Below are positions 1 through 14,068 of a DNA stretch of 20,516 nucleotides, in pieces. Where the stretch lies: IMG/VR virus record IMGVR_UViG_3300009705_000171, positions 1 through 20,516 of that record. One strand, 5' to 3'. Each line of letters begins with the position of its first letter. The stretch's first letter is position 1. A program made the position numbers and the translations under genes. The notes under the pieces were generated by a model. The model was not told the origin of the DNA. It searched no databases and was given only the letters and a program-made list of their open reading frames with translations. Source of the stretch: a virus.

Positions 1-3000
1 AGCACATCCTTGAGCCGGTCCGGATTTATTGCCTTGGGATCTGACGGTACTAACGACATTATGTCTTTAAGCGCCGATGCAAATTCTCCGACAGCGCCGA
101 TTGCTGCGGAGACTGTCTTCATGCCTTTGTCAGCAGTCTTACTGCCCCCAATTTTCTTAGCAACGGCAAGAATAGGCGCAATCACTGTTGGTAGGCTATC
201 TGCCATCGCTAGCGATATTGCTGAGATGACTTTTAATACAACAGGCAGAGCTTTTTCTGTAGCTTTTAAGCCGCCGCCTTTTGGCATGGCGATAGCCATT
301 GTATCTATTATAGCGCCTGCAAAGTTGGATACAGCTTCGATTGCCTGGGAGACGATCCTAACAGCCGGTTCAACAACTGCTGGATTCATGTCTTTGGTCG
401 CATCTAATATGGCCTTGACAACTACCTTGATTCCTTCACCCGCAGAGCTGGCAATCATATACATGACGCTCATTTTTGGTTGACCCGGTGGGCCAAACAA
501 TAGCATCAGCGCACCTAAATCAGGCTTTTTGTTCTTACCCTTTACAAGCTCAAGTGTTTTGAATAGCTGGGACGTCATCTTACCCATGATATCTATTGCT
601 GAGGCTACTAGCGCTATTTTGGGTTGAGCTGTTTTTGGATCTCCGGCGGCATCAGCGGCAGCTATAACAGACGATACAATTTCAGGTAAGTTACCTTTAA
701 TCATATTCATTAAGCCTGTCATTATGACCTTGAGTTTACCCATCATACTGTCAGCTGGATTTTGACCTGTGATTACATCTGATATCTTTTCAAAAAAGCC
801 TTTTTGTGATTCCTGCTCTTGCATCATTTTTAAGACAGTTGACATGGGTTCTAGGAATGTTCCAATAACACCTACAACCTTGGATATTAGTTCAATCTTA
901 GGCTGGGCTGCTTCTACGCCACCCGGTATGTCCATGGTGACAATATCCTTCACCATAGGACCGATCTGCGCTTTCATAATGCCGAACACACCATCCATTA
1001 AGCCTTTAATGCTGGCCATCATGGAATCAAACTTTCCGGTGTTTACCTTGCCGCTAGAAAATATTCCGCCGCCCTCGGTGGATGATGCTATCATGCCCAT
1101 CGCCAGTTCAGCTATGGGTGGCACTACGCCTGCAATGAGCTTGCCGATGGCTTCAATAACAGATGCAATCGCTTTAATCGCTCCGATCTGGGATGGGTCT
1201 ACAGAGTTTGCAACCTCTCCGATGGCCTCTATCATTTCGATAAAGCCGCCTAGAAGCACGTCCATAAAGCCAGTAACAGCCTTGATTGTACCGCCTTGCT
1301 TGCCGCCTTCTTCAACAGCTGCTTGATCAATTTCCGCTAAGCCAATTGCAATGCCTCCTAGCGTTCCAACACCTTCAACAGCTGCATTGATTAGATCAAT
1401 TTTCTGCCCTAGTGAAGCACTGGCTGGAATAGGCATTGCGGCGAATTTTGAGAGCGGCCCTACCAGTTTTTCTGCAATCATTGTCATGAAGTCGCCGATG
1501 AGACCGATGCCTTTCTTCATTAGCCAGCCGCCGATAAACGGTACAGCAAAAGGTATGAGAAGAACAGCGGTCAATGCAGTTATTACCAGCGCGCCCATAG
1601 CGGCTGCAACTGCTCCTGCATTTGTGGCTACTTTCTTGGCATCGATCCCCATTGCACCAAATGAAACTAGGGCCGGACCAAGAACAGATGCTACCAGTGC
1701 TAAGAATCCGGCTGCTGGGAATATGCCAATCATTCCTAGCACAGCTGGTATTGCCAAGGCAGCTGCTGCAATTGCCATGGGGACTGTAGCTATCATTACT
1801 AGCGCCATAAAGCCCATATTAAGTGCAGCGGAAAGCATGTCAACCTTGTCCATTTCTTTTGTGACAGTCTGTAAGGCCGCCGCGAACATGGTTGCACCTA
1901 ATGAAAGAAATCCGGCGCCGATGACAGCGCCCACAGAACCTAAAACGCCTAGCGGGATTAAAAGAGTTGCCGCGACGGCCATGGGAACTGCAGCTAATGT
2001 AGCTATCACCAGCATTCCAAAGTTAATAGCTGCAGACTTCATGTCGACCATGCCCATGGCTTTATTGGTGATTCCCAATGCCACAGCAAATGCTAATGCA
2101 CCGACGCCTACTAACATTGCGCCGACAAGAAGTCCTGGAATTGCTGCCTGTGCTGGAATAAGTGCTACACCTGCCATTGCCAATAAAACTGCTGAGCCTG
2201 CTGCGAGGCCTAAGGCGAGCATATTCAACGCTGCACTACCCATGTCTATGGGACCCATAACAACATTGGCTAGACCCAGGGCTAAAGCAAACGCCACAGC
2301 ACCTAAGCCTAGCATAAGTGCACCAGCCATAAGGCCGGGAATAGCGCCTGAGGCTGCATTGAGTGCTACACCTGCCATTGATAAGACAACAGCAGCACCC
2401 GCAGATATCGCTAAGCCAATCATAGCAGCTGGAACTGCTTTCCAGTCTATTCCTTCAAATGATGATGCTGCTAGTTTTAGTGCTATAGAAAATGCTACGG
2501 CACCAACACCTAGCATAATGGCGCCTGCGCCAAGACCTATTGAAGCTGCAACTACTCCGCCAGCATTAATTTGTTGGCCGGCTTTTGATAGAACCACAGC
2601 TGCGCCGACTGCGATTGCTAGAGCTACCATGCCGGCTGCAACCTTCATGGGCCCGGATGACTTGATAACCTTATATGCTTCAACTGCAGCAAATGCGAAC
2701 ACCTTAATGACAGGTATAAACGACAAAGCCATGATTGACAGTTTAAAAGCAGCCTTGAGGATATCAGTAACTTTAATAGCCGCAAAGCCTTTTATAAAAC
2801 TTCCGAAGCCCTTGCCTAATCCTCCGCCCTTGGCCATTCCTTTGCCCATTTGGGCGGAGCCTTTTAGCGCACCTGGACTCTTAGCAACAGAACCAAACAT
2901 TTTTCCGAATGCTTTACCGATCAAGCCAACCATCTTGCCCATCACAGCGCCTTTAAGTGCTGATAATGTGGCTACTAGGAACATTTTACTAAGAGCAACA

Positions 3001-5072
3001 ATAAGGAGCGCGCTGCCTATCTTGATTAGTTGTGGCTTGTATTTTGTAAATACTGTTGTAGCCAGACCTTTTAGAGCTTTGAGTAGCGGAGGCACTAGTG
3101 CAATTAATAAGCCTATTACTGCGGAGAATAGGTCGCCGAACATCTGGCCTAGACCTGATTTTATAGGCTTCGGGTTCTTTATTGCTTCTGTAATCTTGTT
3201 TACCAGTGTTGTCATTCCCTTAAGGGCAACAGACATCAAGCCTAAAAATATACCCTTAAGGGCCTTCATTATCTTAGACCCACCTTCGGCTACATCTTTC
3301 GCAGCACCGCCCTGCTTACCGAAGAACTTCCCAAAGGTCTTCTTGATACTGTCTATGAACTTTTCTGTTGCCTTCTTTGGATCCTTACTAAGATCACCGA
3401 AGAATGTCTTAAAGACCTTCATGGTGTCTCCCATCAGGGCCTTAAATTTCTTGGGGTCAAATATGCCTGCTAGACCTCCTAAGAATTGCTTAACACCAGG
3501 AAACATTTTTACGAACATTATTCCGACTTGTTTACCAGCCTGGAAAACTACTTTAAGCGACTTTCGAATATTTTTCATCAATAAACGAAACTCTTTGCTC
3601 TTTTTAATTCCGTCGCCGAATCCAGAAAGGAATGCGTCCATGAAACCCTTAAAGCCTCCGCCGCCGCCGCCCTTCGTCATCTTTTGAATAGATCCAGCTA
3701 ACTTATCCATTGCCTCAGCTTGTGATAGCTGTTTCTTTTCAGCCTTGTCTCCACCCTTGGAGATATCATCGTAGCTCAGAGACATGCCTTTTTGACTGAA
3801 CGCTAGCTTTGCAGCTTCTTCAGAAAGGCCAGATTGTGATGCCAACATTTTCAATTCTTGTCGACTCATGTCTTCAACAGACTTACCAGTATCCTTAAAC
3901 GACTTCTGAAGCATTGATAGACGCTCTGCAGGGTTCTGTGCGTTCATAAGCTCCATGGCATCAACGTTCATACCAAACGCCTGCGCCATTTCTCCTGCGC
4001 CCTTTGCTGCGTCTTCAAAGTTATCAAACTTAGAAATGACACCCTGAAGCTCTTTTGCCTTGATGCCTAACTTATCGGCAAAAATAGCTGCCTTACCTAA
4101 TTCTTTAGCGCTTAACTGACCAAAGTTTGCAACGTCTGCAGACATCTCAGCCATCGACTTGCCTACAACCTTAGCATTAACCCCAAATTGATCACCCATT
4201 TGAATTGCCATGGATGCAAATTTATTCATTTCCGCAACAGGATCTTTACCTGCCATGGAAGCCTGTTTAAGCATGTTGGCTTGCTGATCAGCTGTCATGC
4301 CTAATCCCTTACGGTACATCGAGAGTTCAACAGCGGATTTCTGGAACATCTCTGTCATACCGGAGAGACCGGGGCCGATAGCTTGAGCTAACTCGTGGAC
4401 TTCCTTCATCGCCGCGGCGACGCCTTCAGGTCCGTGTCCGTATACTTGGGACATTTTTAGACCGGTGCCGGCCATGTCGCCCATTTGACTTTGTATTTGC
4501 CCTAAAGAAGATGCAACTGCTTTACCTTCATTTGATGCAATATCACCAAAGGTACCTCTCATTGCCTCCAGCTCTTGACGAATTGGAGACGGCCCACCGC
4601 CGCCTGATTGTGCCATGCCTACTAAGCCGCTCATGAGCTTAAACGGTGTTGCGAGAATTGTGGCTCCAACTTTACCAAGTGAGCCAACAATGCCGGTAAT
4701 TCCTTTACCGACACTCTTCATCATGCCCAATCCGCCCTTGAAGCCGGATATCAAGCCAACACCTGCACCAACTGCAGCTACTTTTGAAGCGTCGAGTTTG
4801 CTTGCTAATCCGCCGGCGGCGTCTGCAACTGATTCTAGGGAGTTTTTGGGCTTTTCAGCAGCATCAGCTGCCTCTGTAAGGGCGCCTGACATGCCTTCTA
4901 GCTGTTCAGTCATGCCTTCTAGAGACTCACACTTGAGTGCCGCACAAAGTTGCATAGCAATTTGAGTCTGGTCTTGCAATTGCTTTGCAGATGCAGCCAT
5001 TAACGCTTGCCTATCTTGTAGGAGCTTGTTAATCTGCTGCTGTATTTCTAGTTGTGCGCCTTCTTCGGCCAT
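1..5072 (-). CDS. Tail tape measure protein, N-terminal 1690 residues (runs off the window)
   Basis: An uninterrupted minus-strand frame from ATG 5072 (MAEEGAQLEIQQQINKLLQD) to the left edge; the start has only a weak GAGAG site. The first 60 residues are a Gln-rich coiled coil. Residues 70-470 are Gly/Ala/Met/Lys-rich helices (GMTADQQANMLKQASMAGKD; KDTGKSVEDMSRQELKMLAS). Gly468-473 is a six-glycine hinge, followed by basic helices (GFKGFMDAFLSGFGDGIKKS). About residues 800-1210 hold six degenerate hydrophobic modules of 65-70 residues. The remainder alternates Ile/Val/Ala helices with polar linkers. Very long, helical, Ala/Gly/Met-rich and hydrophobic in the middle, it fits a tape measure protein that sets tail length and is ejected before the DNA. 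No peptidase or lysozyme motif is visible in this part. Its position after tube and chaperones is canonical. Confidence 0.92.
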   Translation of the reverse strand, partial: MAEEGAQLEIQQQINKLLQDRQALMAASAKQLQDQTQIAMQLCAALKCESLEGMTEQLEGMSGALTEAADAAEKPKNSLESVADAAGGLASKLDASKVAAVGAGVGLISGFKGGLGMMKSVGKGITGIVGSLGKVGATILATPFKLMSGLVGMAQSGGGGPSPIRQELEAMRGTFGDIASNEGKAVASSLGQIQSQMGDMAGTGLKMSQVYGHGPEGVAAAMKEVHELAQAIGPGLSGMTEMFQKSAVELSMYRKGLGMTADQQANMLKQASMAGKDPVAEMNKFASMAIQMGDQFGVNAKVVGKSMAEMSADVANFGQLSAKELGKAAIFADKLGIKAKELQGVISKFDNFEDAAKGAGEMAQAFGMNVDAMELMNAQNPAERLSMLQKSFKDTGKSVEDMSRQELKMLASQSGLSEEAAKLAFSQKGMSLSYDDISKGGDKAEKKQLSQAEAMDKLAGSIQKMTKGGGGGGFKGFMDAFLSGFGDGIKKSKEFRLLMKNIRKSLKVVFQAGKQVGIMFVKMFPGVKQFLGGLAGIFDPKKFKALMGDTMKVFKTFFGDLSKDPKKATEKFIDSIKKTFGKFFGKQGGAAKDVAEGGSKIMKALKGIFLGLMSVALKGMTTLVNKITEAIKNPKPIKSGLGQMFGDLFSAVIGLLIALVPPLLKALKGLATTVFTKYKPQLIKIGSALLIVALSKMFLVATLSALKGAVMGKMVGLIGKAFGKMFGSVAKSPGALKGSAQMGKGMAKGGGLGKGFGSFIKGFAAIKVTDILKAAFKLSIMALSFIPVIKVFAFAAVEAYKVIKSSGPMKVAAGMVALAIAVGAAVVLSKAGQQINAGGVVAASIGLGAGAIMLGVGAVAFSIALKLAASSFEGIDWKAVPAAMIGLAISAGAAVVLSMAGVALNAASGAIPGLMAGALMLGLGAVAFALALGLANVVMGPIDMGSAALNMLALGLAAGSAVLLAMAGVALIPAQAAIPGLLVGAMLVGVGALAFAVALGITNKAMGMVDMKSAAINFGMLVIATLAAVPMAVAATLLIPLGVLGSVGAVIGAGFLSLGATMFAAALQTVTKEMDKVDMLSAALNMGFMALVMIATVPMAIAAAALAIPAVLGMIGIFPAAGFLALVASVLGPALVSFGAMGIDAKKVATNAGAVAAAMGALVITALTAVLLIPFAVPFIGGWLMKKGIGLIGDFMTMIAEKLVGPLSKFAAMPIPASASLGQKIDLINAAVEGVGTLGGIAIGLAEIDQAAVEEGGKQGGTIKAVTGFMDVLLGGFIEMIEAIGEVANSVDPSQIGAIKAIASVIEAIGKLIAGVVPPIAELAMGMIASSTEGGGIFSSGKVNTGKFDSMMASIKGLMDGVFGIMKAQIGPMVKDIVTMDIPGGVEAAQPKIELISKVVGVIGTFLEPMSTVLKMMQEQESQKGFFEKISDVITGQNPADSMMGKLKVIMTGLMNMIKGNLPEIVSSVIAAADAAGDPKTAQPKIALVASAIDIMGKMTSQLFKTLELVKGKNKKPDLGALMLLFGPPGQPKMSVMYMIASSAGEGIKVVVKAILDATKDMNPAVVEPAVRIVSQAIEAVSNFAGAIIDTMAIAMPKGGGLKATEKALPVVLKVISAISLAMADSLPTVIAPILAVAKKIGGSKTADKGMKTVSAAIGAVGEFASALKDIMSLVPSDPKAINPDRLKDV
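1440..2670 (-). repeat. Six degenerate ~68-residue hydrophobic modules in the tape measure gene
   Basis: Each module starts with a short motif like (M)xxIDMxSAALNM and continues into two hydrophobic Gly/Ala helices (LAAGSAVLLAMAGVAL; GALMLGLGAVAFALALGL). Motif copies fall near 2665 (GPMKVAAG), 2455 (EGIDWKAVPAA), 2245 (GPIDMGSAALN), 2040 (GMVDMKSAAIN), 1835 (DKVDMLSAALN) and 1640 (MGIDAKKVATN), about 200-210 bases apart. The repeat is at protein level; the DNA has diverged. Confidence 0.7.
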
Positions 5073-5141: not shown

Positions 5142-5390
5142 CTATAGACGCCAGATTCGACCAGTAATCTTATTATAGGCCTTTGCGCGGGCGCGCTTAT
5201 TTTCTAAAAGAGGCATAACCTGATCAATTGTTGTACTGTCAGACGATAGAGCTGTATATAGCACCTTAGAAGCTTCTAGCACTTCTTTAGTAGCCTCGAC
5301 AATTTCTTTTTTGCCTTTTAACTTTACTATTTGAGTTGACCCCAAAATATAGCTGGCGTACGCTGTCTCATCGATTGTGTAGTTATTCAT
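5142..5390 (-). CDS. Small protein between tail chaperones and tape measure, unknown
   Basis: The product is 82 aa; AGAAGGA precedes the ATG with good spacing, so it is probably a real gene. I do not recognise it. It starts MNNYTIDETAYASYILGSTQ, then is mostly helical and charged (KKEIVEATKEVLEASKVLYT) and ends in a basic AYNKITGRIWRL. No membrane segment, signal peptide or Cys. It lies 32 bases after the gp51-like frame and 69 bases before the tape measure start, in the slot where small tail assembly factors are usual. A role in tape measure folding or hub assembly is inferred only from position. Confidence 0.72.
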   Translation of the reverse strand: MNNYTIDETAYASYILGSTQIVKLKGKKEIVEATKEVLEASKVLYTALSSDSTTIDQVMPLLENKRARAKAYNKITGRIWRL

Positions 5391-5422: not shown

Positions 5423-5701
5423 CTAAGTAAACCTTCTTAGTCTAGATGGGACTTGAGAACGTTGACGCCCTTGCATGGCGCGTTGTTCGCCGCCGTTGGC
5501 GTGTGCTGCCCTAGATGCACCAGATTGGTTATCGTTGGCAGCCTTAATCTCTTTGTTTAGCCGCTTTAAGAACCAGTGTCTCTGCCAAACAGGAAGTCTG
5601 TAGCACTCTTCAAATGTAAAGCCCATATAGTACATGAGACTAAATATGTGCTCTAAGAAGATTTCCTTATCATTCGGAGTCAGGCCAAAAAAACGTGGCA
5701 C
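5423..5701 (-). CDS. Small gp51-like / tail assembly chaperone T-like protein
   Basis: The open frame allows 92 aa from a GTG at 5701, but the only good ribosome binding site (GGAGG near 5721) is about 16 bases away, too far for normal initiation. Residues 5-60 are FGLTPNDKEIFLEHIFSLMY, then YMGFTFEECYRLPVWQRHWF, LKRLNKEIK. The pattern 'F.EhIF.L.y.mgft..e.y.lPv..R.wf..rl..e' resembles small proteins that follow gp26 in T4-like phages and are sometimes labelled gp51 (hub assembly catalyst), and it also fits chaperone T modules of other tails. The last 30 residues are Gly/Arg/Gln-rich and probably disordered. It is much shorter than T4 gp51 (249 aa). It may be produced only as the C-terminal part of a frameshift fusion with the gp26-like protein. 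Confidence 0.65.
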   Translation of the reverse strand: MPRFFGLTPNDKEIFLEHIFSLMYYMGFTFEECYRLPVWQRHWFLKRLNKEIKAANDNQSGASRAAHANGGEQRAMQGRQRSQVPSRLRRFT

Positions 5702-6527
5702 CCATAGGGAGCCGTACCTCCGAGGACTCGAGACAGTGTGGGCAATCCATCCACTGCTTCATGTCGATTCCCGGCTCGTTCTTGTCAATAAATTTACGAA
5801 GCTCTAAAGAGTCTCGCGCTGGCATGTTCCTGATAAAGTGTGAAATCTTAGACTTATCTGTAATGTTATTCACTGAGACAATTGAGTAGTGCAGCCTTGT
5901 TGTTACAAAGTTGTCTGACTTCATTCCCTGCTTTTTGCGCCTTTCCATCTGAACTGTTAGGTTCGACTCATCTAGTCCTGTCAAGAACTTAAACTTTAGC
6001 TCCATTTTAGTAACTGGAAGCTTGAACTCAAAAAGATTAGCACCCGGGGCCACAGGCTCGATCTCTAGCCTTTTAAGCGGTAGCTCAGAAAGATTAAACT
6101 CTTGTTTAGATCGCTCAGAGCATGCGGGACAATCGACTTCAGCGTTATACTCAGAGCCGTAGCCTGTAATTCGAATAGCAGTCATGACGGCATTTCGATC
6201 GCCGGTAAGCATTACATCAGGATCAATTGTTTTATCAATTAAACATGACTTAATAAGCGCACTAATCACAGTACCCTTTTTGATTAGCGTTCGGGAAGTC
6301 AAAATATCTTCTTCCTTAGCTGTCATTGCCTTGATATCCAGAGTTTCCTGGCTTGACAAGGGCGATTCGGCGGGATACACAGTTCCGTTCGATGGAAGCG
6401 GAACAGACTCAGTGGGGACTTCAAAATTAAAGTCCTCCATCATCACGTTACGCGTTGTAAAACCTGCCTTCTGTGCTTCAGCGGCAGTAAATACCTCATT
6501 CCGATTTTTAGTTTCGTTATCTGACAC
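5670..6527 (-). CDS. gp26-like baseplate-hub assembly / tail chaperone protein with zinc ribbon
   Basis: The product is 285 aa from the GTG at 6527, which has GAGGAG ten bases upstream; an ATG at 6575 has no ribosome binding site. It matches the T4 baseplate hub (gp26-type, T4_baseplate) family pattern: VPLPSNGTVYP (residues 42-52), LDIKAMTAKEEDILTSRTLI (63-82), LTGDRNAVMTAIRITGYGSE (107-126). Two Cys pairs, CPAC (133-136) and CPHC (262-265), could form a split zinc site. In T4, gp26 helps assemble the hub around the tape measure. Here it sits between tube and tape measure, exactly where lambda-like phages carry chaperone G. The last codons overlap the next frame across a run of seven T. It may therefore be made both alone and as a frameshift fusion. 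Confidence 0.83.
   Translation of the reverse strand: MSDNETKNRNEVFTAAEAQKAGFTTRNVMMEDFNFEVPTESVPLPSNGTVYPAESPLSSQETLDIKAMTAKEEDILTSRTLIKKGTVISALIKSCLIDKTIDPDVMLTGDRNAVMTAIRITGYGSEYNAEVDCPACSERSKQEFNLSELPLKRLEIEPVAPGANLFEFKLPVTKMELKFKFLTGLDESNLTVQMERRKKQGMKSDNFVTTRLHYSIVSVNNITDKSKISHFIRNMPARDSLELRKFIDKNEPGIDMKQWMDCPHCLESSEVRLPMGATFFWPDSE
5687..5693 (-). promoter_or_regulatory. Candidate programmed frameshift site (T7) in the gene overlap
   Basis: In the 32-base overlap the message reads ACG TTT TTT TGG in the gp26-like frame, five codons before its TGA. The downstream frame reads CGT TTT TTT GGC. A +1 slip of tRNA-Phe on TTT-T (perfect re-pairing) or a -2 slip joins the first 280 residues to GLTPNDKEIF of the next frame, giving a fusion of about 367 residues. 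A -1 slip would lead to the third frame and does not give this fusion. Confidence 0.5.
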
Positions 6528-6575
6528 TTGACTATGTCTCCTCAATAAATGGTTATTCGGTGCCTTACTGCACAT

Positions 6576-6664: not shown

Positions 6665-7153
6665 TTAGTACTGAAGTACGCAGTTATCAAATCTGATTGA
6701 GAGAGAAATCTCAGTCATATCTTCCGCGCCGTAGTCCAGATCACCAAATGTTGCGTTTGTGAGAAAGCACCCCTTGAGGTCCCAAAGCTCAACAACTGTC
6801 CCAACAGGATCCAGCAACTTAAGCTGGCAGTCACGCTTGTAAAAGTCAGCGTAACCAGCTCGGCCTGAAACTGATTCGAAGTGAGTTCTCACCCACTCCA
6901 TAACCTGTTGTGCACCTGAAGGTGCGATTGGATCGTAAAGCGTAACGGAAATCGCTTCGAACTTGGCCTTACCCGCCATATAGCGTGTAGAGTTCATGAA
7001 CGGTACTTCCTGCTCTGCAATCGTAATGTTTGGACGTGCAGCGGTCTTCATCAAGAAGGAGTCGAGTCCCTCAATGGCAAAGACCCAGCGAAACTTTCGT
7101 TTCGGCTCAAACTTATTTGGTAGCATATCACTGACTTGAAGTGTCTCTGCCAT
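6665..7153 (-). CDS. Tail tube protein (gp19-like)
   Basis: The product is 162 aa, very close to T4 gp19 (163 aa). It has the family's landmarks: LPNKFEPKRKFRWVFAIEGL near the N-terminus, the central VPFMNSTRYMAGKAKFEAIS (the 'p.gn.k+.aG...+..i.v...D' element), a WV.......G helix, and the C-terminal FGDLDYGAEDMTEISLSIRF. These mark the T4 gp19 / VgrG-Hcp-like tube fold. Hexamers stack to form the inner tube through which DNA passes. The ATG has AGGAG upstream. It follows the sheath genes and is directly followed by an intrinsic terminator, so capsid-neck-sheath-tube transcription probably ends here. No anomaly seen. Confidence 0.96.
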   Translation of the reverse strand: MAETLQVSDMLPNKFEPKRKFRWVFAIEGLDSFLMKTAARPNITIAEQEVPFMNSTRYMAGKAKFEAISVTLYDPIAPSGAQQVMEWVRTHFESVSGRAGYADFYKRDCQLKLLDPVGTVVELWDLKGCFLTNATFGDLDYGAEDMTEISLSIRFDNCVLQY

Positions 7154-7201: not shown

Positions 7202-10200
7202 TTAAATCTCGGCTCCTTGATTAGTAACAACAAAATCTAGTGAGATGAACTCTAGCGATCTTGTCGGCTGCAAGAAAATCTTGCCACGGATTGTATTATT
7301 TTCGACATCAGCCTGAGTTGTTGTCGAAGTATCAATCTGCACCTTGTACCTATCCAAACCTTGTTGGGCTTGAATTTGTTGCATAACTGGATTCACCAAG
7401 TTGGAGAATCTAGCAAGCGTATCTACTCTGTTAGGCTCGAATAATAAGCCTTGTGCAATTTTCTTAACTTTTCTACGAATATCGATAAGAAGACGACGTA
7501 CATTGACACGATCAAGCGCACTTTGTGCAGCCTGCAGTGTTTTCTGTCCGAATACCACAACTCCCGGTGTATGGGGGAACGATGTAATAGGATTAATATC
7601 CGCTTCGTAGAGGGCGTCTAGATTAGCTCTCTTAAGCTTTACTTGTGATTCCAATACCGTATTAAGGGCACCACGTGTAAAGCCCGCAGGAGCAAACCAG
7701 GGATGTGATACGGAGTCATTCAATGAGAAGGCTCCGAGTACTGCCACTGAAGGTGGACATTGCACATTTGAGTTAGTAACTGGGTCTGTGATTACAACAT
7801 CAGGGAAGTAAGCAGCTGCAAACGAAGAGTCCAAATTACGGCTTTCAAAGTTGTTAACCGTGTATGTGACGTTTGTAAGCTGCTTAGAAGATCCTGTAAC
7901 AAACTGATTGTTTTGGTCTTTTTCCTCGAGGTCCATTAAGAACATCGCATCAAAACGATTTTCAACAGAATCAATTGCATAATCTGTAACAGCTGGGTGT
8001 CTTAGACCTGGAATTGCTAGCAGTTGAATTTCTACGTCTGCTTTCTCTTCCATTACGTCGATAGCTTTTCTATAAGCTGCAACTGTTGGACCCTTGACAC
8101 CACCTTGATTAGCTGGTTCACTAAACTCTCTTCGTACGGCAACGTCTGTAAGCTTTGCTTTCTCTTTGTCGAAGATGTTGAAGCCATCAAATCCGCCTTG
8201 AACGAATGTTGTGAACTTCAAGTACTTACGAGTTGGTAAGTGAGCAAAGTCCTTAGCAGGATCTAGGAATCTTGTATCTGATGCCTGATGTGTTGCGCCG
8301 TTCGCTGAAGTTAACGATCCCTTTGTTCCGTTTCTTCTGTATGTCGCAGCGGACCACTCATTAACAACTGGTTTGTCAGTAGAACCTGTAACAACCTGGA
8401 CTCTTTCTAGAGTGAAGAGATTGTTATTATAAAGGTCACTATCTAAAACAGCGTTATTAAGATTAGCTGCGCCTGCATTGTCTCGAACGAATACGTTGGC
8501 AATGTCTTTTCTGTGGCTTGGGAAGAATTTTGTAAACGAAGCAATTGATGTATCAACAACTGTATTTCGATTAGGCTCTTCAACCGAGTCAATTCTTTCA
8601 AACTGAACGCCCCATGATAGATCTGCATTTGATCTTTTCTTGTTGCCTTTGCCCTGTGCGACATTTCTTCGCAACGGAACAGGTGTCATTTTAACTTGGC
8701 GTACTTCAGCCAATGTAACACCGGAGCCACCAACAAAGCATGTATCAGCACCTAAGACATCAGAAAGAGCTGTACTTCCGTCTAGCGAAAGGTGACCAGG
8801 ACCTCTAAACCCTACTGGTAAAGAGCTGTCTGGCATTACGCCTCTTGATACGTCTGTATGCATCTGCACTCTTGCGTATCTAGACCTGGATGTAAATGCA
8901 CCTTCAAGTCTTAGCTTTTGAGCGCCTGCTCTTTGGTCAAAGTCATAATATGCATACATATCACCGATTCTTCGGGCAATGTAGTTGTCAGAAGATCTGT
9001 CTAGGTTGACACCTCGATATGATTCTAAAACGACGGGATCTGAGTCATTATCGTAAAAGTCACGAATAACAATGTCAAATTTTCCGAACTTATTGTTTTC
9101 ATTGCTACTAGCAGCGATATTCTCAATAGTGATCTTAAAAAGATCATTGGAGCGTGCGCCGTCATCTAAAGCATGAACCTTAAAGAGGTTATTGTTGCCA
9201 GCACCGAAGTCCTGGGACATAAACCATGGTGACTGTGCCGTCTGATATCGATCCTGGAAATCCTCATAGTTAGGATTATTTGATGTTCCAGTATTACGGC
9301 CTGAGGTTCCTGCAAGGATAAATGCAGCTTCTTCTAGTCCAGTTCCTGTGTGACCTGCTGTATGTACACCTGATGCGTCTGGCTGGGATACTGCAGAGTG
9401 CACATCCCAATGTGCATACAAGAAGTGTCCTGCTTCACGAACCTTATTAGGATCTGTATTTAGGACCTTACCGAGATAACTAGGATCAGATGGATCAAAC
9501 GATGCTTTAATCTTATTGGGATATAAGCTAGTAGACTTATGTCCGTTTAGAAATACCTCGAAAGCTTGCTTGCCATTGGTGAGATTAACAGTACCGTGTG
9601 CCTGACCTGCTGTCATTTCTTGAGCACCGGAATTGTTGGATACAGGAGGCTCTGCTGTATCGATAGTAGCTGTGGTTTGATACGACGATGAAAGTGCCAT
9701 AATAACACCATCTGGAGTCATGATCGCAGCACGAAGAATTGGAGCACCAGCGCCACCAGAGCCGGCTGTAAATGCGGTAACAGCAGGCGCCGAATCCGGG
9801 TGCTTATAGAGGATCTTGTTTCCGAGAGTCTCTACAATTGCTGTATTGCCATCAATACCGGGTTGCTGAGTGAGTACTAGCGTCTGGGGGTTTGCACCGG
9901 CTGTATCCGTTAAAACTACACTAAGGAAGTCTCCACTCGCACTAGCTGCACCAAACGCGTTTGCATGAACAATTGCATCACGAAGCGCTGTTAGAAACGC
10001 TCGAGATGTTGTCGCGACGCCGTTAGGTACACCTACTGCAATTGCACCGACGTTGCCAGCACCTGCGGTTTCAGCACCAGTATCAGATCCTGTCTCCAAA
10101 ACTGTCCCTGTAGTAACCCCACCTGCGGAGGTGTTGGAAACAACAAACTTAAGAGTTTTAGGTGTGTCAGGATTGGTTGTGCGCGCAGTAATTGTTATAG

Positions 10201-10834
10201 CATGCTTCTCAAGGACGTTAGTCTTAATGTCTTCGTCACCATCAGCTGTATGGATTTGAAGCTTGCCAGAGACACTCGTCAGTGATTGTGCGCCGGCGTC
10301 GACCAAATAGCCAGATGAATTTGTATCAGCCATCAACGATCCAAGGAAGTTCATACGTCCTAGAGGTTGAGGTCTGTCAGTACCCTGGTCGAAGTCGCCG
10401 TCGGCGTCATCAATTGGTGCAACTGCAAACGGATTTGCGCCACCTACTGTCTTTAATAGCTCTCTAGTTGAACCAATTAAACCGCTGTCTTTAACTAAAC
10501 GCTCACCGACAACAAAACCGGAGTTTGTTACAACACCTGTTGTGTCATCACGCTTTGTGCCATCGCCTACACCTAAAACTCTTACATACGTTCCTGCTCT
10601 CGCATTACGCATCCACTCGTTCATGGCTAGCGGTCCAAATTTTTCGCCATCGGTAGCACCGAACTCTGCGACGAAGTCTTGATAAGTAGCAACTGTAATA
10701 GGAACAAATGCTCGCCCCTTGATTGCAGTTCCAATAATTCCGGCCGGGGTGCCTTGAGGGCCTAAAGCAGTGGGACCGCTTAGGTCGATTTCCCTCGTGC
10801 TAACACCTGGGCTTTTAAAAGTTAGCTCAGCCAT
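7202..10834 (-). CDS. Tail sheath protein, downstream paralog with inserted domain (gp18-like)
   Basis: The product is 1210 aa; TTAGGAG precedes the ATG. The N-terminus (FKSPGVSTREIDLS; PAGIIGTAIKGRAFVPITVA; GTYVRVLGVGDG) and C-terminal 130 residues (FGQKTLQAAQSALDRVNVRR; FLQPTRSLEFISLDFVVTNQ) are those of contractile-tail sheath proteins and match the preceding gene closely. The main size difference is an extra region at about residues 190-365: HAITITARTT, TSRAFLTALRDAIVHANAFG and TLVLTQQPGIDGNTAIV. This pattern of strands, a helix with 'LraAI..a' and a closing 'GxxGNtxI' recurs in many environmental-phage structural proteins. It probably forms a surface-exposed beta domain. The tail tube gene follows 48 bases later. 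Confidence 0.96.
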   Translation of the reverse strand: MAELTFKSPGVSTREIDLSGPTALGPQGTPAGIIGTAIKGRAFVPITVATYQDFVAEFGATDGEKFGPLAMNEWMRNARAGTYVRVLGVGDGTKRDDTTGVVTNSGFVVGERLVKDSGLIGSTRELLKTVGGANPFAVAPIDDADGDFDQGTDRPQPLGRMNFLGSLMADTNSSGYLVDAGAQSLTSVSGKLQIHTADGDEDIKTNVLEKHAITITARTTNPDTPKTLKFVVSNTSAGGVTTGTVLETGSDTGAETAGAGNVGAIAVGVPNGVATTSRAFLTALRDAIVHANAFGAASASGDFLSVVLTDTAGANPQTLVLTQQPGIDGNTAIVETLGNKILYKHPDSAPAVTAFTAGSGGAGAPILRAAIMTPDGVIMALSSSYQTTATIDTAEPPVSNNSGAQEMTAGQAHGTVNLTNGKQAFEVFLNGHKSTSLYPNKIKASFDPSDPSYLGKVLNTDPNKVREAGHFLYAHWDVHSAVSQPDASGVHTAGHTGTGLEEAAFILAGTSGRNTGTSNNPNYEDFQDRYQTAQSPWFMSQDFGAGNNNLFKVHALDDGARSNDLFKITIENIAASSNENNKFGKFDIVIRDFYDNDSDPVVLESYRGVNLDRSSDNYIARRIGDMYAYYDFDQRAGAQKLRLEGAFTSRSRYARVQMHTDVSRGVMPDSSLPVGFRGPGHLSLDGSTALSDVLGADTCFVGGSGVTLAEVRQVKMTPVPLRRNVAQGKGNKKRSNADLSWGVQFERIDSVEEPNRNTVVDTSIASFTKFFPSHRKDIANVFVRDNAGAANLNNAVLDSDLYNNNLFTLERVQVVTGSTDKPVVNEWSAATYRRNGTKGSLTSANGATHQASDTRFLDPAKDFAHLPTRKYLKFTTFVQGGFDGFNIFDKEKAKLTDVAVRREFSEPANQGGVKGPTVAAYRKAIDVMEEKADVEIQLLAIPGLRHPAVTDYAIDSVENRFDAMFLMDLEEKDQNNQFVTGSSKQLTNVTYTVNNFESRNLDSSFAAAYFPDVVITDPVTNSNVQCPPSVAVLGAFSLNDSVSHPWFAPAGFTRGALNTVLESQVKLKRANLDALYEADINPITSFPHTPGVVVFGQKTLQAAQSALDRVNVRRLLIDIRRKVKKIAQGLLFEPNRVDTLARFSNLVNPVMQQIQAQQGLDRYKVQIDTSTTTQADVENNTIRGKIFLQPTRSLEFISLDFVVTNQGAEI
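9740..10267 (-). other. Extra domain inserted in the downstream sheath paralog
   Basis: Codons for roughly residues 190-365 of the larger sheath. The paralog has only a short stretch at the corresponding place, between the conserved N-terminal domain and the shared LRAAIMTPDG / VRAVILTDSA segment. The region is Gly/Ala/Thr-rich, ends in the LTQQPGIDGNTAIV motif, and then runs into a Gly/Ala linker (TAFTAGSGGAGAP). Boundaries are approximate, set by eye from the paralog comparison. Confidence 0.5.
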
Positions 10835-10882: not shown

Positions 10883-13800
10883 TTACTCGAACGAAACTCC
10901 GCTATTCGTAACGACAAAATCAACCGCAATGAACTCAACAGCTCTTGTTGGGACAAGAATAATTCGCCCGTTCATCTTGTTTGATTCGTGATCAGTTTCA
11001 GTATTATTTGTATTATCACAAACAACGCCAAACTTCTCGATGCCTGCTTGAGCTTGAATCAACGTAAGAAGAGGTGTGACTTGATTTACAAATCTCTGCC
11101 TAGTCTGATCATTGTTTTGCTCAAATAGCAGTTTTGTTGCAACGCCCGAAACTAATCGTTTGACTTCTAGAAGAAGCCTGCGAACGTTAACTCTATCAAG
11201 TGCTGATTTAGCAACCTGAAGTGTCTTTTGACCGAAGATTACGAATCCACCTGTGGGGAAAACCGCGATGGGGTTAATTCTCGCATCGTAAAGAAGATCT
11301 CTGTCAGCAGAGTTAAGCCGAACATCAACGTTTGTTACAGATTCCAGCGCGCCTCTATTGAAGCCGGCTGGTGCAAACCATGGATATGCGACCTTGTCAT
11401 TGAATCCTAGAGCTGTCATTGCAGCGACCGAAGCCGGTACAGAGACTACTTCATTATTCACAACATCTAGTATGTCGATATCTGGGAAGTAAGCAGCACC
11501 GTAATTATTGTCGATGACTCTGGACTCAAACTGTTCTGATGTCTCTTGAACATCAACCTTTGCTGTGGAATCGTCAAAAAGACGTGTTCCACCAGAAGCG
11601 TACTTAATAACATCCATCAAGTAGATTGCCATGCTGTAGCTCTTTACAGCTTCCAGTGCATGATCACTAATGAATGCGTCTCTCATTCCCGGGACAGCAA
11701 GAATGTTGACTCTTGATGCCATTGGGTTTGTTATGATCGTAACTGCTTCCTTGAAGGATGAAACAATGTTGTTTTTGTTTCCCTTGCCTGCAACGTGTGA
11801 CTTAAGACCAATAGCGGGAATAGCATCAGTTGCCTTGCCACCGGTATCTGATGACGAAGCTTTGTCATTCATCAGACGATTATCTCTATCTAAGAAGTTA
11901 ACGCCGTCAAAACCACCATAGAACATTGTCGAGAACTTTGCGTACTCGGTAAATCTATTAAAGTAAGATGAACTGTTGTGATTAACCAGAGAAGCAAATG
12001 TTAACCTCTGGTCTGCTCCGCCAACGCCTGCATCCTTAATAGTATAGTATGATGAATCAGGTTTGCCGTTTCTCATGTAAGCTGCACCGAGCATATGCTC
12101 CTTAGCAGTACCTGTAAGCTCTGTAAGCTCTGAGCCTACTGTGCCTGAGTTTACATGGTTTGCGAAAGCAACGCGTGCCATTGTGAACTTATTATTATTA
12201 AACTTGTCAGCGCCTGAGCCTGTTACCAGAGTATCAAGCTTTTCAATTCCTTGAAACTTAGCGTATGAACCAACAATTGCATTGGGCAGTGCACCAACAT
12301 TTGGATTCATAATAGCATCTGTAATTGACCCTTGATCAGCACTTGATGATAGAGGCATTCTTTCGAACTTAACACCCCAGTAAAGTCTAGCATCTGATCT
12401 TTCGTTGTCACCTCGTTGGCCTGTCCACGTCGCTGTATTAGATGTAGCGCCGCGTGTGCACTTAAATCTAAGCGGCAGCGGAGGAATTACACTGAATGGT
12501 AGATCTGTGGCATTATCGTCTACATCACCGTCATGCTTCATGAGTGACGTTGCATAAGTGGCGGTGTAAGCATCCGAACCAAATGATGCGTCGACTGTTG
12601 CCGCTTGATCCATCAAGGATAATGAAGTTTTTAGAACTGGAACGCCACGGAATCCGAAAGGTAGTGATGAAGCCGGAATTTCTTTTTTCTCAACTGCATC
12701 TGCCATTTGAACCCTAATACGTGATGACTTATTAGGATACTTTCCTTGGATTGCGAGCCCACGATCTTCGATATTTGCTGCATTAAAGTTGTAGAAAACT
12801 TTCTTATCGCCAACTTTTTTGGCAACATAGCTATCAGAACTTGGATCTAGTGAACATGCAGGATAAGCTTCTAAGACTTCTAAGCTTGTATCAGTGTCAG
12901 CGAATCTTCTTACCTGAACATCGAATGTACCGTAAGGATTATTGGGATCCGTTGATCGTCTCAAGTTAGCGATTGAAATCTTATATAGCGTATTACCAAT
13001 TGCACCGTCATCGATTGTTTCGAAGTGAAACAAATCATGCTCAGACTCACCAAAAGGCTGTGAGATTATTGCGGGTGTTCTAGCAGTTGTGAATCTACTG
13101 TCTAGACGCCCGAATAGCTCAGAATGTTTTGCTGTTTTGAGAAAGCTTTTGTCTGAAGTTGAAGATGGTGATCCGATGTATACAGCAACCTTAGCAGCAG
13201 TTGCACCTGTATCTCGTTTGACAGAAGCTAGCTCATCCTCAACAGCAAAGTCTAGATATAGAAGATGCTTAAGTGCTGTGAACTGGTCAGGGTCTGTGTT
13301 TAAAACGTTTGCGATATACATAGTGTCGCTAGGATCTAGTGAGACTACATAAGACTTCGCATTTGCCGTTGTAATAGGGCTGGCATCTGTATCTTGCGCA
13401 ATCCAGAGTGTGAATCGACCTGTAGCTTTGTGTGCGTCAACTGTTCTGGTGTTAAGCGCTTGCAAACCAGCCTCGTTAGCTGAAGCTGCAGCTGTTGTTC
13501 CGTCAGTTGCAACAGCTGGTATAATTCTTGTCGCGGAGTCTGTTAAGATAACAGCACGGACAAGACTAACAGCATTGGCTGCAATTACGTACGAATCATT
13601 GTCACTGAATGCTGGAAAACCTGCGACTTCGTTTCCTGCACCATCAGCTCGTGTTCTATGTTCTGCTGTGATAAATGTTACACCACCATGGAGGCCGTTA
13701 GCGGCGTCGCCGCTCCGGGCCGTGGTAGACAATACAGTGCCAGCATTTTTAGCGAATCCGCCGTTTTCAAAATTGCTAATATCTGTATCGTTTTCGATAA

Positions 13801-14068
13801 CGCCCGCACCTAAAGTACGTACGTAAGTAACTGCATTCCTGTTCTTAAGAAATTCTCTCACAGCATACGGACCAAAACGGTCCTGGTCTAGTGTTCCAAA
13901 CCTTGCTGTAAAATCTGCTAGTGATCCTACAGTGACGGGAACAAATGCTGGTCCTCGCTCTGCAGTGCCAACTACGCCTGCTGGTACGCCCAGTGGCGTG
14001 GCTACTCTAGCTGAGAGATCTATTTCCTGTTCAAAGAACCCAGGTGATCTAAATGTCTGCTCGGCCAT
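10883..14068 (-). CDS. Tail sheath protein, upstream paralog (gp18-like)
   Basis: The product is 1061 aa; AAGGAG lies 9 bases before the ATG. Residues 1-90 carry the conserved sheath N-terminus: FRSPGFFEQEIDLS, then PAGVVGTAERGPAFVPVTVG and AVTYVRTLGAG, whose strand exchange links neighbouring subunits. Residues 932-1061 are the conserved C-terminal domain (FGQKTLQVAKSALDRVNVRR; IILVPTRAVEFIAVDFVVTN). The long middle part forms the variable outer domains. Sheath subunits stack in rings around the tube and contract to drive it through the envelope. T4 gp18 has 659 residues, so this is unusually large. It is clearly paralogous to the next gene at both ends and in the middle (LFHFETIDDGA versus LFKVHALDDGA). 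Which paralog forms the main helix cannot be told from sequence. Confidence 0.95.
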   Translation of the reverse strand: MAEQTFRSPGFFEQEIDLSARVATPLGVPAGVVGTAERGPAFVPVTVGSLADFTARFGTLDQDRFGPYAVREFLKNRNAVTYVRTLGAGVIENDTDISNFENGGFAKNAGTVLSTTARSGDAANGLHGGVTFITAEHRTRADGAGNEVAGFPAFSDNDSYVIAANAVSLVRAVILTDSATRIIPAVATDGTTAAASANEAGLQALNTRTVDAHKATGRFTLWIAQDTDASPITTANAKSYVVSLDPSDTMYIANVLNTDPDQFTALKHLLYLDFAVEDELASVKRDTGATAAKVAVYIGSPSSTSDKSFLKTAKHSELFGRLDSRFTTARTPAIISQPFGESEHDLFHFETIDDGAIGNTLYKISIANLRRSTDPNNPYGTFDVQVRRFADTDTSLEVLEAYPACSLDPSSDSYVAKKVGDKKVFYNFNAANIEDRGLAIQGKYPNKSSRIRVQMADAVEKKEIPASSLPFGFRGVPVLKTSLSLMDQAATVDASFGSDAYTATYATSLMKHDGDVDDNATDLPFSVIPPLPLRFKCTRGATSNTATWTGQRGDNERSDARLYWGVKFERMPLSSSADQGSITDAIMNPNVGALPNAIVGSYAKFQGIEKLDTLVTGSGADKFNNNKFTMARVAFANHVNSGTVGSELTELTGTAKEHMLGAAYMRNGKPDSSYYTIKDAGVGGADQRLTFASLVNHNSSSYFNRFTEYAKFSTMFYGGFDGVNFLDRDNRLMNDKASSSDTGGKATDAIPAIGLKSHVAGKGNKNNIVSSFKEAVTIITNPMASRVNILAVPGMRDAFISDHALEAVKSYSMAIYLMDVIKYASGGTRLFDDSTAKVDVQETSEQFESRVIDNNYGAAYFPDIDILDVVNNEVVSVPASVAAMTALGFNDKVAYPWFAPAGFNRGALESVTNVDVRLNSADRDLLYDARINPIAVFPTGGFVIFGQKTLQVAKSALDRVNVRRLLLEVKRLVSGVATKLLFEQNNDQTRQRFVNQVTPLLTLIQAQAGIEKFGVVCDNTNNTETDHESNKMNGRIILVPTRAVEFIAVDFVVTNSGVSFE

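Follow-up and report, generated by a model that had tools for sequence, protein, structure and literature searches.

Frameshifting in tail-chaperone genes is a textbook example of programmed recoding. In the lambda G/GT system, a short G protein (140 aa) and a frameshifted G-T product, made by a -1 shift at G GGA AAG near the 3′-end of G, are encoded beside the tail tube gene, and this arrangement is kept despite low sequence conservation. One review names phage T4 as the exception to G/GT tail-chaperone frameshifting; the same review gives CTT T as the shift codon of prfB (RF2), and 3 nt (+1) and 9–14 nt (-1) as the SD spacings that stimulate frameshifting (PMC5009743). T4 gp26 and gp51 appear as hub assembly chaperones in a table of a T4 review (PMC3004832). 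Our literature search returned no report of gp26/gp51 frameshifting that we recognized (most subscription journals lay outside its coverage, making it weak evidence of novelty), and gp26, gp51, contractile and myovir- were all absent from the main text of PRFect.

The locus described here was found in a 20.5-kb virus record (IMGVR_UViG_3300009705_000171); the whole stretch analyzed, 20,516 nt, is referred to as the window. Its minus strand carries two tail sheath genes, a tail tube gene, a gp26-like gene (G), a second frame (T), a small ORF and a very long ORF, in that order, with the tube gene directly upstream of G and the long ORF after T (Table 1). The two sheath genes are adjacent and very large (7202–10834, 1210 aa, and 10883–14068, 1061 aa, both on the minus strand). 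The long ORF had no match in PHROG at E 0.001; three isolates have a long ORF with a tape measure annotation in the matching position, and an open stretch of at least 900 nt follows T in 55 of the 60 loci having at least 1400 nt there. A short ORF occurs in Mel-JY01 at the position of the small ORF of the window, and Streptomyces phage BRock (L088) has an endolysin annotation on the long ORF that occupies the tape measure position.

Table 1 Features of the window, with positions numbered from its first letter
Feature	Position	Strand	Basis or remark
G frame, gp26-like, 301 aa, ending in GATFFWPDSE and stop	5670..6575	-	PF12322 T4_baseplate, phrog_150
Slippery run TTTTTTT (TTT TTT T, then GG)	5687..5693	-	YTT TGG in 79/79 readable loci
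P-site codon TTT; A-site codon TGG	5688-5690; 5685-5687	-	Within slippery run
T domain after +1 shift (GLTPNDKEIF..., 87 aa + stop)	5423..5686	-	gp51 C-terminal domain/DUF6760-like; weak direct matches
GTG-initiated ORF of the T frame, 92 aa	5423..5701	-	GTG missing in closest relative
GAGGT, SD-like, 25 nt before P-site codon	5716..5720	-	GAG preferred to GAA across loci
Tail tube protein, gp19-like, directly upstream of G	6665..7153	-	phrog_4542, E = 5.5e-32; PF06841, E = 6e-6 (below cut-off)
82-aa ORF between T and long ORF	5142..5390	-	ORF list, profile searches
1690-aa ORF leaving window edge	3..5072	-	Presumed tape measure, by size and position

The G frame matched PF12322 (E = 7.4e-17; 62.2 bits, curated cut-off 24.5) and phrog_150 (E = 1.1e-21). 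Direct HMM matches of the T frame were weak (DUF6760, E = 4e-4, below the cut-off; phrog_634, E = 0.28), and NCBIfam gave no informative match for it. The 3′-end of G reads GCC ACG TTT TTT TGG CCT GAC TCC GAA TGA. The T frame, +1 relative to G, shares 32 bases with it (5670–5701), and these include the seven-T run read as TTT TTT T, just as the initial annotation had described. On translation, a +1 shift at the run leads directly into GLTPNDKEIF and yields a 383-residue G-T fusion. The T frame has a GTG of its own at 5699–5701. Its nearest SD-like run, GGAGGT, lies 14 nt upstream, too distant to serve as a good ribosome binding site, and in the closest relative (L002, 88% identical) the corresponding codon is GCG; the earlier remark that this GTG lacks a properly spaced site thus held.

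We consider it very likely (probability of approximately 0.88) that the two frames are one gene, read through a programmed +1 ribosomal frameshift that gives a G-T product. Ribosomes remaining in frame would complete G, the gp26-like protein. At TTT TTT TGG, the peptidyl-tRNA-Phe on the second TTT would slip one base forward and re-pair with the next TTT, so that a fraction of ribosomes would read GGC CTG ACT and continue into G-T.

The +1 set of relatives comprised the best 80 of at least 600 found in a scan of viral contigs. Two loci (L028 and L051) in which the 3′-end of G was missing were left out, leaving 79 readable loci (the window and 78 others). Both this set and the -1 set described below lean to near relatives because only the best 80 of each were retained; the G genes of the +1 set nevertheless formed 73 clusters at 90% identity and 20 at 50%. 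T was in +1 and started at one common place, after YTT TGG, in all 79 loci. The slip-site sequence was TTTTTTTGGCCT in 63 of them, TTTCTTTGGCCT in 11 and TTCTTTTGGCCT in two, with three single variants. The codon in the P site was TTT (68 loci) or CTT (11 loci) and never TTC, although TTC represented 163 of the 670 Phe codons elsewhere in these genes (TTT, 507). The absence of TTC from the P site fits slippage, which requires the tRNA to pair again one T further on. TGG occupied the A site throughout (79/79). The re-pairing of a Phe tRNA after a +1 slip, proposed initially for the window, works in every one of the 79 loci. The run of T was broken in 14 loci, 11 with TTT CTT TGG and three with TTC TTT TGG. 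Because T was found in +1 at the same place in all loci, including those with a broken run, the arrangement is neither chance nor a homopolymer error. When start codons were counted (ATG, GTG and TTG only), 32 of the 79 loci had none for T between its upstream stop and approximately 30 nt past the site, and 10 had one with an SD-like 4-mer 5–15 nt upstream. The comparison of homologs for T run, frame offset and missing start, put forward with the initial annotation, therefore gave the predicted outcome.

Within 45 nt upstream of the site, Glu codons preceding Val were almost always GAG (60 GAG, 4 GAA), compared with 30 GAG and 81 GAA elsewhere, which indicates that GAGGT is kept at the nucleotide level. 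GAGGT was mostly located 19–25 nt from the P-site codon, and SD-like runs clustered 24–33 nt upstream of that codon; the GAGGT spacing is outside both of the stimulatory ranges given in the review. Downstream RNA structure was sought in the +1 class and none was found (mean z of -0.42 vs. -0.29 in control windows). As in prfB, a YTT in the P site would slip to the next T, and 11 of the 79 loci carry the CTT T of prfB itself. However, prfB has a stop codon in the A site and an SD 3 nt upstream, whereas the +1 class has the sense codon TGG and no such SD. The +1 site is prfB-like at the slip itself, but it is not a prfB-type cassette.

Phage records with a related G numbered 42, of which 13 were examined. 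Mel-JY01 and RM378 have TTT TTT TGG and Flavobacterium phage immuto has TTT CTT TGG, in each case with T in +1. In SP-15, LIS04, GXN1, BRock, LuckySocke and LR756508, T is also in +1, at other or unclear sites; LR756508 had no obvious slip site. PF12322 did not match in three of 19 records (Bacillus phage G, immuto and Mel-JY01), and the G genes of immuto and Mel-JY01 were recognized by tblastn. Searches with other queries recovered little: a 57-residue N-terminal query gave nothing against phages, the T frame alone reached Mel-JY01 at E = 0.07 (ranked under two chance-like RNA-phage matches), the SP-15 protein had no match in plasmids, and scans with the SP-15, PBECO4 and Aeromonas phage 31 proteins gave one, three and one loci, respectively. 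Eight loci were found in bacterial assemblies, on what appear to be phage contigs. One was left out where its contig ends (L228), and the seven readable loci all agreed with the +1 class, one of them with TTT TTT TTC rather than TGG. A further locus (L235) was left out, its PF12322 match being weak, below the cut-off and in an unrelated-looking ORF.

Several public genomes annotate the T frame incompletely or not at all. Among loci L084, L086, L087 and L089, the immuto and SP-15 records annotate it in part, as a short hypothetical protein, and the records of Streptococcus phage GXN1 and Listeria phage LIS04 leave it unannotated.

In a second class of related phages, T is in -1. It follows T TTT TTC in the cyanophages S-PM2 and P-SSM2, in KVP40 and phiW-14, and in the jumbo phages Atu_ph07, PBECO4, PA5oct, Phosso and LR756511, and T TTT TTT in the pelagiphage HTVC008M. 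A scan with S-PM2 gp26 gave 276 loci, and the best 80 all had the exact heptamer T TTT TTC with T in -1. This set was less diverse than the +1 set (35 clusters at 90% identity and 3 at 50%). The zero-frame product is the short one; the G stop begins 10 nt downstream of the first base of the heptamer. In 18 of the 80 loci (13 distinct), T lacked a start codon between its upstream stop and 41 nt past the G stop; an ATG for T was present in 52, and 45 of these had it at +5, counted from where the G stop begins. The upstream Glu position was GAG in 54 loci, GAA in 15 and not Glu in 11 when all 80 loci were counted without deduplication, and the corresponding numbers for the 56 distinct ends were 32, 13 and 11. 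Glu codons elsewhere in this class were 516 GAG and 1294 GAA; the preference for GAG at this position creates GAGG approximately 10 nt before the heptamer.

The 60 nt downstream of the heptamer folded more stably than expected (mean z of -2.40, with 35 of 56 sequences below -2; control windows, -0.80; mononucleotide shuffles). Most of 48 distinct sequences had a hairpin starting 4–9 nt after the heptamer, its sequence varying between subgroups, and folding was weak in a few (e.g., L160 and L174). In the S-PM2-type stem, 88.7% of cells were paired, compared with at most 52% in slid versions. Covariation in this stem was modest, with one compensatory pair in four of 12 sequences; the number of pairs was reached in 441 of 500 shuffles and the covariation score in 0 of 500. 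The P-SSM2-type stem had no compensatory pair among 18 sequences, but it is nearly invariant and covariation is therefore uninformative. E. coli dnaX likewise has an X XXY YYZ heptamer and an SD-like run approximately 9–10 nt upstream, and its downstream stem-loop probably has a counterpart in these hairpins; the -1 class differs in having T TTT TTC as its heptamer and the short protein as its zero-frame product. In cyanophage-type phages and several jumbo phages, the G and G-T pair seems to be made by a -1 frameshift, and the recoding signal would reverse its direction between lineages with the protein outcome conserved. Salmonella phage Vi01 (L108) has a T-like frame in -1 after G without T TTT TTC (GAA ATT TTC ATT TAA).

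Production of T as a separate protein, whether initiated at a codon of its own (in the window, the GTG) or coupled to termination of G through reinitiation, would account for the in-frame GTG of the window and for the ATG, GTG or TTG found in the T frame of 47 of 79 loci in the +1 class. It would also agree with the ATG of the -1 class, which is predominantly at one position relative to the G stop, and with the records of S-PM2, P-SSM2 and KVP40, in which T is annotated as a separate gene. Nevertheless, such starts are lacking in 32 of 79 and 18 of 80 loci, respectively, the closest relative of the window lacks the GTG, and a start site accounts neither for the constant YTT T or T TTT TTC nor for the frame or the G-T fusion in gp51. 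We consider separate production of T very unlikely for the window, although separate initiation may occur in the -1 class, in which 52 of 80 loci have an ATG. The initial annotation left the direction of the shift as +1 or -2, and a -2 shift at YTT TGG would reach the T frame as well, with re-pairing in 76 of 79 loci; moreover, an SD-like run so far upstream should draw the ribosome backward rather than forward. The -2 option fails in the three TTC TTT TGG loci, in which the Phe tRNA would land on TCT, and it is these loci that favor +1; the CTT T of 11 loci is, in addition, the prfB shift codon. The +1 part of the earlier proposal was consequently retained, and the chance that the shift is -2 appears as slim as that of a separately made T.

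Slippage of RNA polymerase on the T run, giving a mixture of mRNAs for G and G-T, could operate in the window and the many relatives with seven T, in which loss of one base reaches the T frame. However, the run is interrupted in 14 of 79 loci by CTT or TTC, leaving at most four T, and the SD-like runs and hairpins of the -1 class are at spacings that point to ribosomes. This origin of the two products seems even less probable than a -2 shift. Homopolymers are prone to sequencing error and the window is a virus contig known from sequence alone, so errors in assembly or sequencing were also considered, as was gene decay; the possibility of a homopolymer error had been raised at the outset. The agreement of 79 of 79 loci across separate contigs and named isolates, including the 14 without an intact run, makes error or decay extremely improbable. 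We therefore retain the programmed +1 frameshift for the window and its relatives.

Both gp26 and gp51 of T4 matched PF12322 (E = 8.8e-64 and 3.9e-52), and gp51 extends approximately 48 residues beyond the match. In profile comparisons (hhalign; gp26 and gp51 profiles of five sequences each, E-values for single comparisons), the -1 fusion aligned with gp51 over 243 columns (probability 98.7, E = 4.5e-16), and the T of the -1 class aligned with the gp51 C-terminus (probability 96.8, E = 2.2e-10) but not with gp26 (probability 0.2). Thus, the G-T fusion is matched by the whole of gp51, and G alone by gp26. The T sequences of the +1 and -1 classes aligned with each other (probability 83.9, E = 7.7e-6). 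Direct comparison of the window-class T with T4 gp51 was weak (probability 1.4, E = 0.037), so that T of the window is linked to gp51 only transitively, by way of the -1 class. The second frame had been called gp51-like, which seems apt for the C-terminal domain of T4 gp51 and not for the whole protein. A GenBank note on KVP40 already likens the small gp51 of that phage to 40 C-terminal residues of T4 gp51.

Two PF12322 genes were present in T4, Aeromonas phage 31, phiP4-3, RB43 and a Krischvirus, and KVP40, which also belongs to Straboviridae, has one PF12322 gene and T in -1. Gene 26 of all five two-gene phages contained no T TTT TTY heptamer, and the 90 nt following the gene showed no T-like frame. 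In RB43, the end of gene 26 reads TTT TTA AAG, which could act as a -1 heptamer, but there is no T frame after it. T4 thus has two separate, divergent genes, both with the PF12322 domain, in place of the single frameshifted gene of the window. Because gp26 and gp51 are G-like and G-T-like paralogs, and because gene 26 lacks the heptamer, T4-type Straboviridae seem to make G and G-T from the paralogous genes 26 and 51, fused in frame in the latter. The evidence for homology is strong, and gp26 and gp51 may be functionally equivalent to G and G-T. Replacement of recoding by duplication in the T4 lineage seems the simplest reading; this direction is proposed from the spread of frameshifting among the other lineages.

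The gp26/gp51 family is probably the G/GT system of T4-related contractile phages, derived from one ancestral frameshift gene in which the sign of the shift switched and which the ancestors of T4 duplicated, gp26 corresponding to G and gp51 to G-T. The tie of gp26/gp51-type genes to the G/GT system that was suggested for the window was therefore supported, and it extends further, to the -1 sister class and the T4 paralogs. If this is true, then T4 is no longer an exception, and its two G/GT proteins come from duplicated genes.

A G/GT-like system is likely for the window; as tail assembly chaperones, G and G-T would most likely work between the tube and the tape measure. Such a role is suggested by the position of the genes, the two-product design and the listing of T4 gp26 and gp51 as chaperones. 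By analogy with lambda, G would coat the tape measure and T would recruit the tube, and gp26 and gp51 could then be tested for roles in chaperoning the tape measure and recruiting the tube. The place beside the tail tube gene, the short G with a frameshifted G-T near its 3′-end and the persistence of the arrangement are common to both systems, whereas gp26/gp51-type G proteins are larger than lambda G (about 240–300 aa, with conserved Cys pairs) and the shift in the window class is +1 at YTT TGG instead of -1. Genetic studies cited in the T4 review place gp26 in the finished hub (PMC3004832), which counts against a pure chaperone because a pure chaperone would not be predicted there.

The structure model of G had a pLDDT of 84.3. 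Among 613 aligned PDB chains, its best two were the HK97 tail assembly chaperone 2ob9 (Z of 5.7, rmsd of 4.4, 84 aligned residues; a low Z and a small margin over archaeal Cren7, Z of 5.2) and YqbN 3klu (Z of 5.6, rmsd of 4.3, 96 aligned), the latter presumably a tail assembly chaperone of HK97 type. Foldseek alone placed 2ob9 30th (E = 5.8). The apparent resemblance of the modeled fold to tail assembly chaperones is a lead only. Matches of the T model to viral predicted structures were weak (best E = 0.14), with Gp51 of Prochlorococcus phage P-HM1 at E = 0.73. Lambda G and T compared with six profiles of the gp26/gp51 family gave nothing over probability 0.4 (hhalign).

DUF6760, to which the T family is weakly linked by HMM (E of at most 0.1 for 8 of 38 T sequences), was present in three of 395 genomes from the phylum of a Winogradskyella assembly. 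In two of these three genomes, G and T were fused in a single frame, one HMM match extending past the stop. Single-frame G-T fusions were observed in tail-like bacterial operons at L230, L231 and L232 (genomes G205, G272 and G038); L232 was found by PF12322, and its T part was judged by eye. In some bacterial tail-like loci, only an in-frame G-T fusion was found. In the third DUF6760 genome, T is a separate frame in -1: at L229 (G079), this startless DUF6760/T frame runs over the 3′-end of G at CTA TCG GGG GAA TCA TAG, and a frameshift in this injection-system-like operon is possible.
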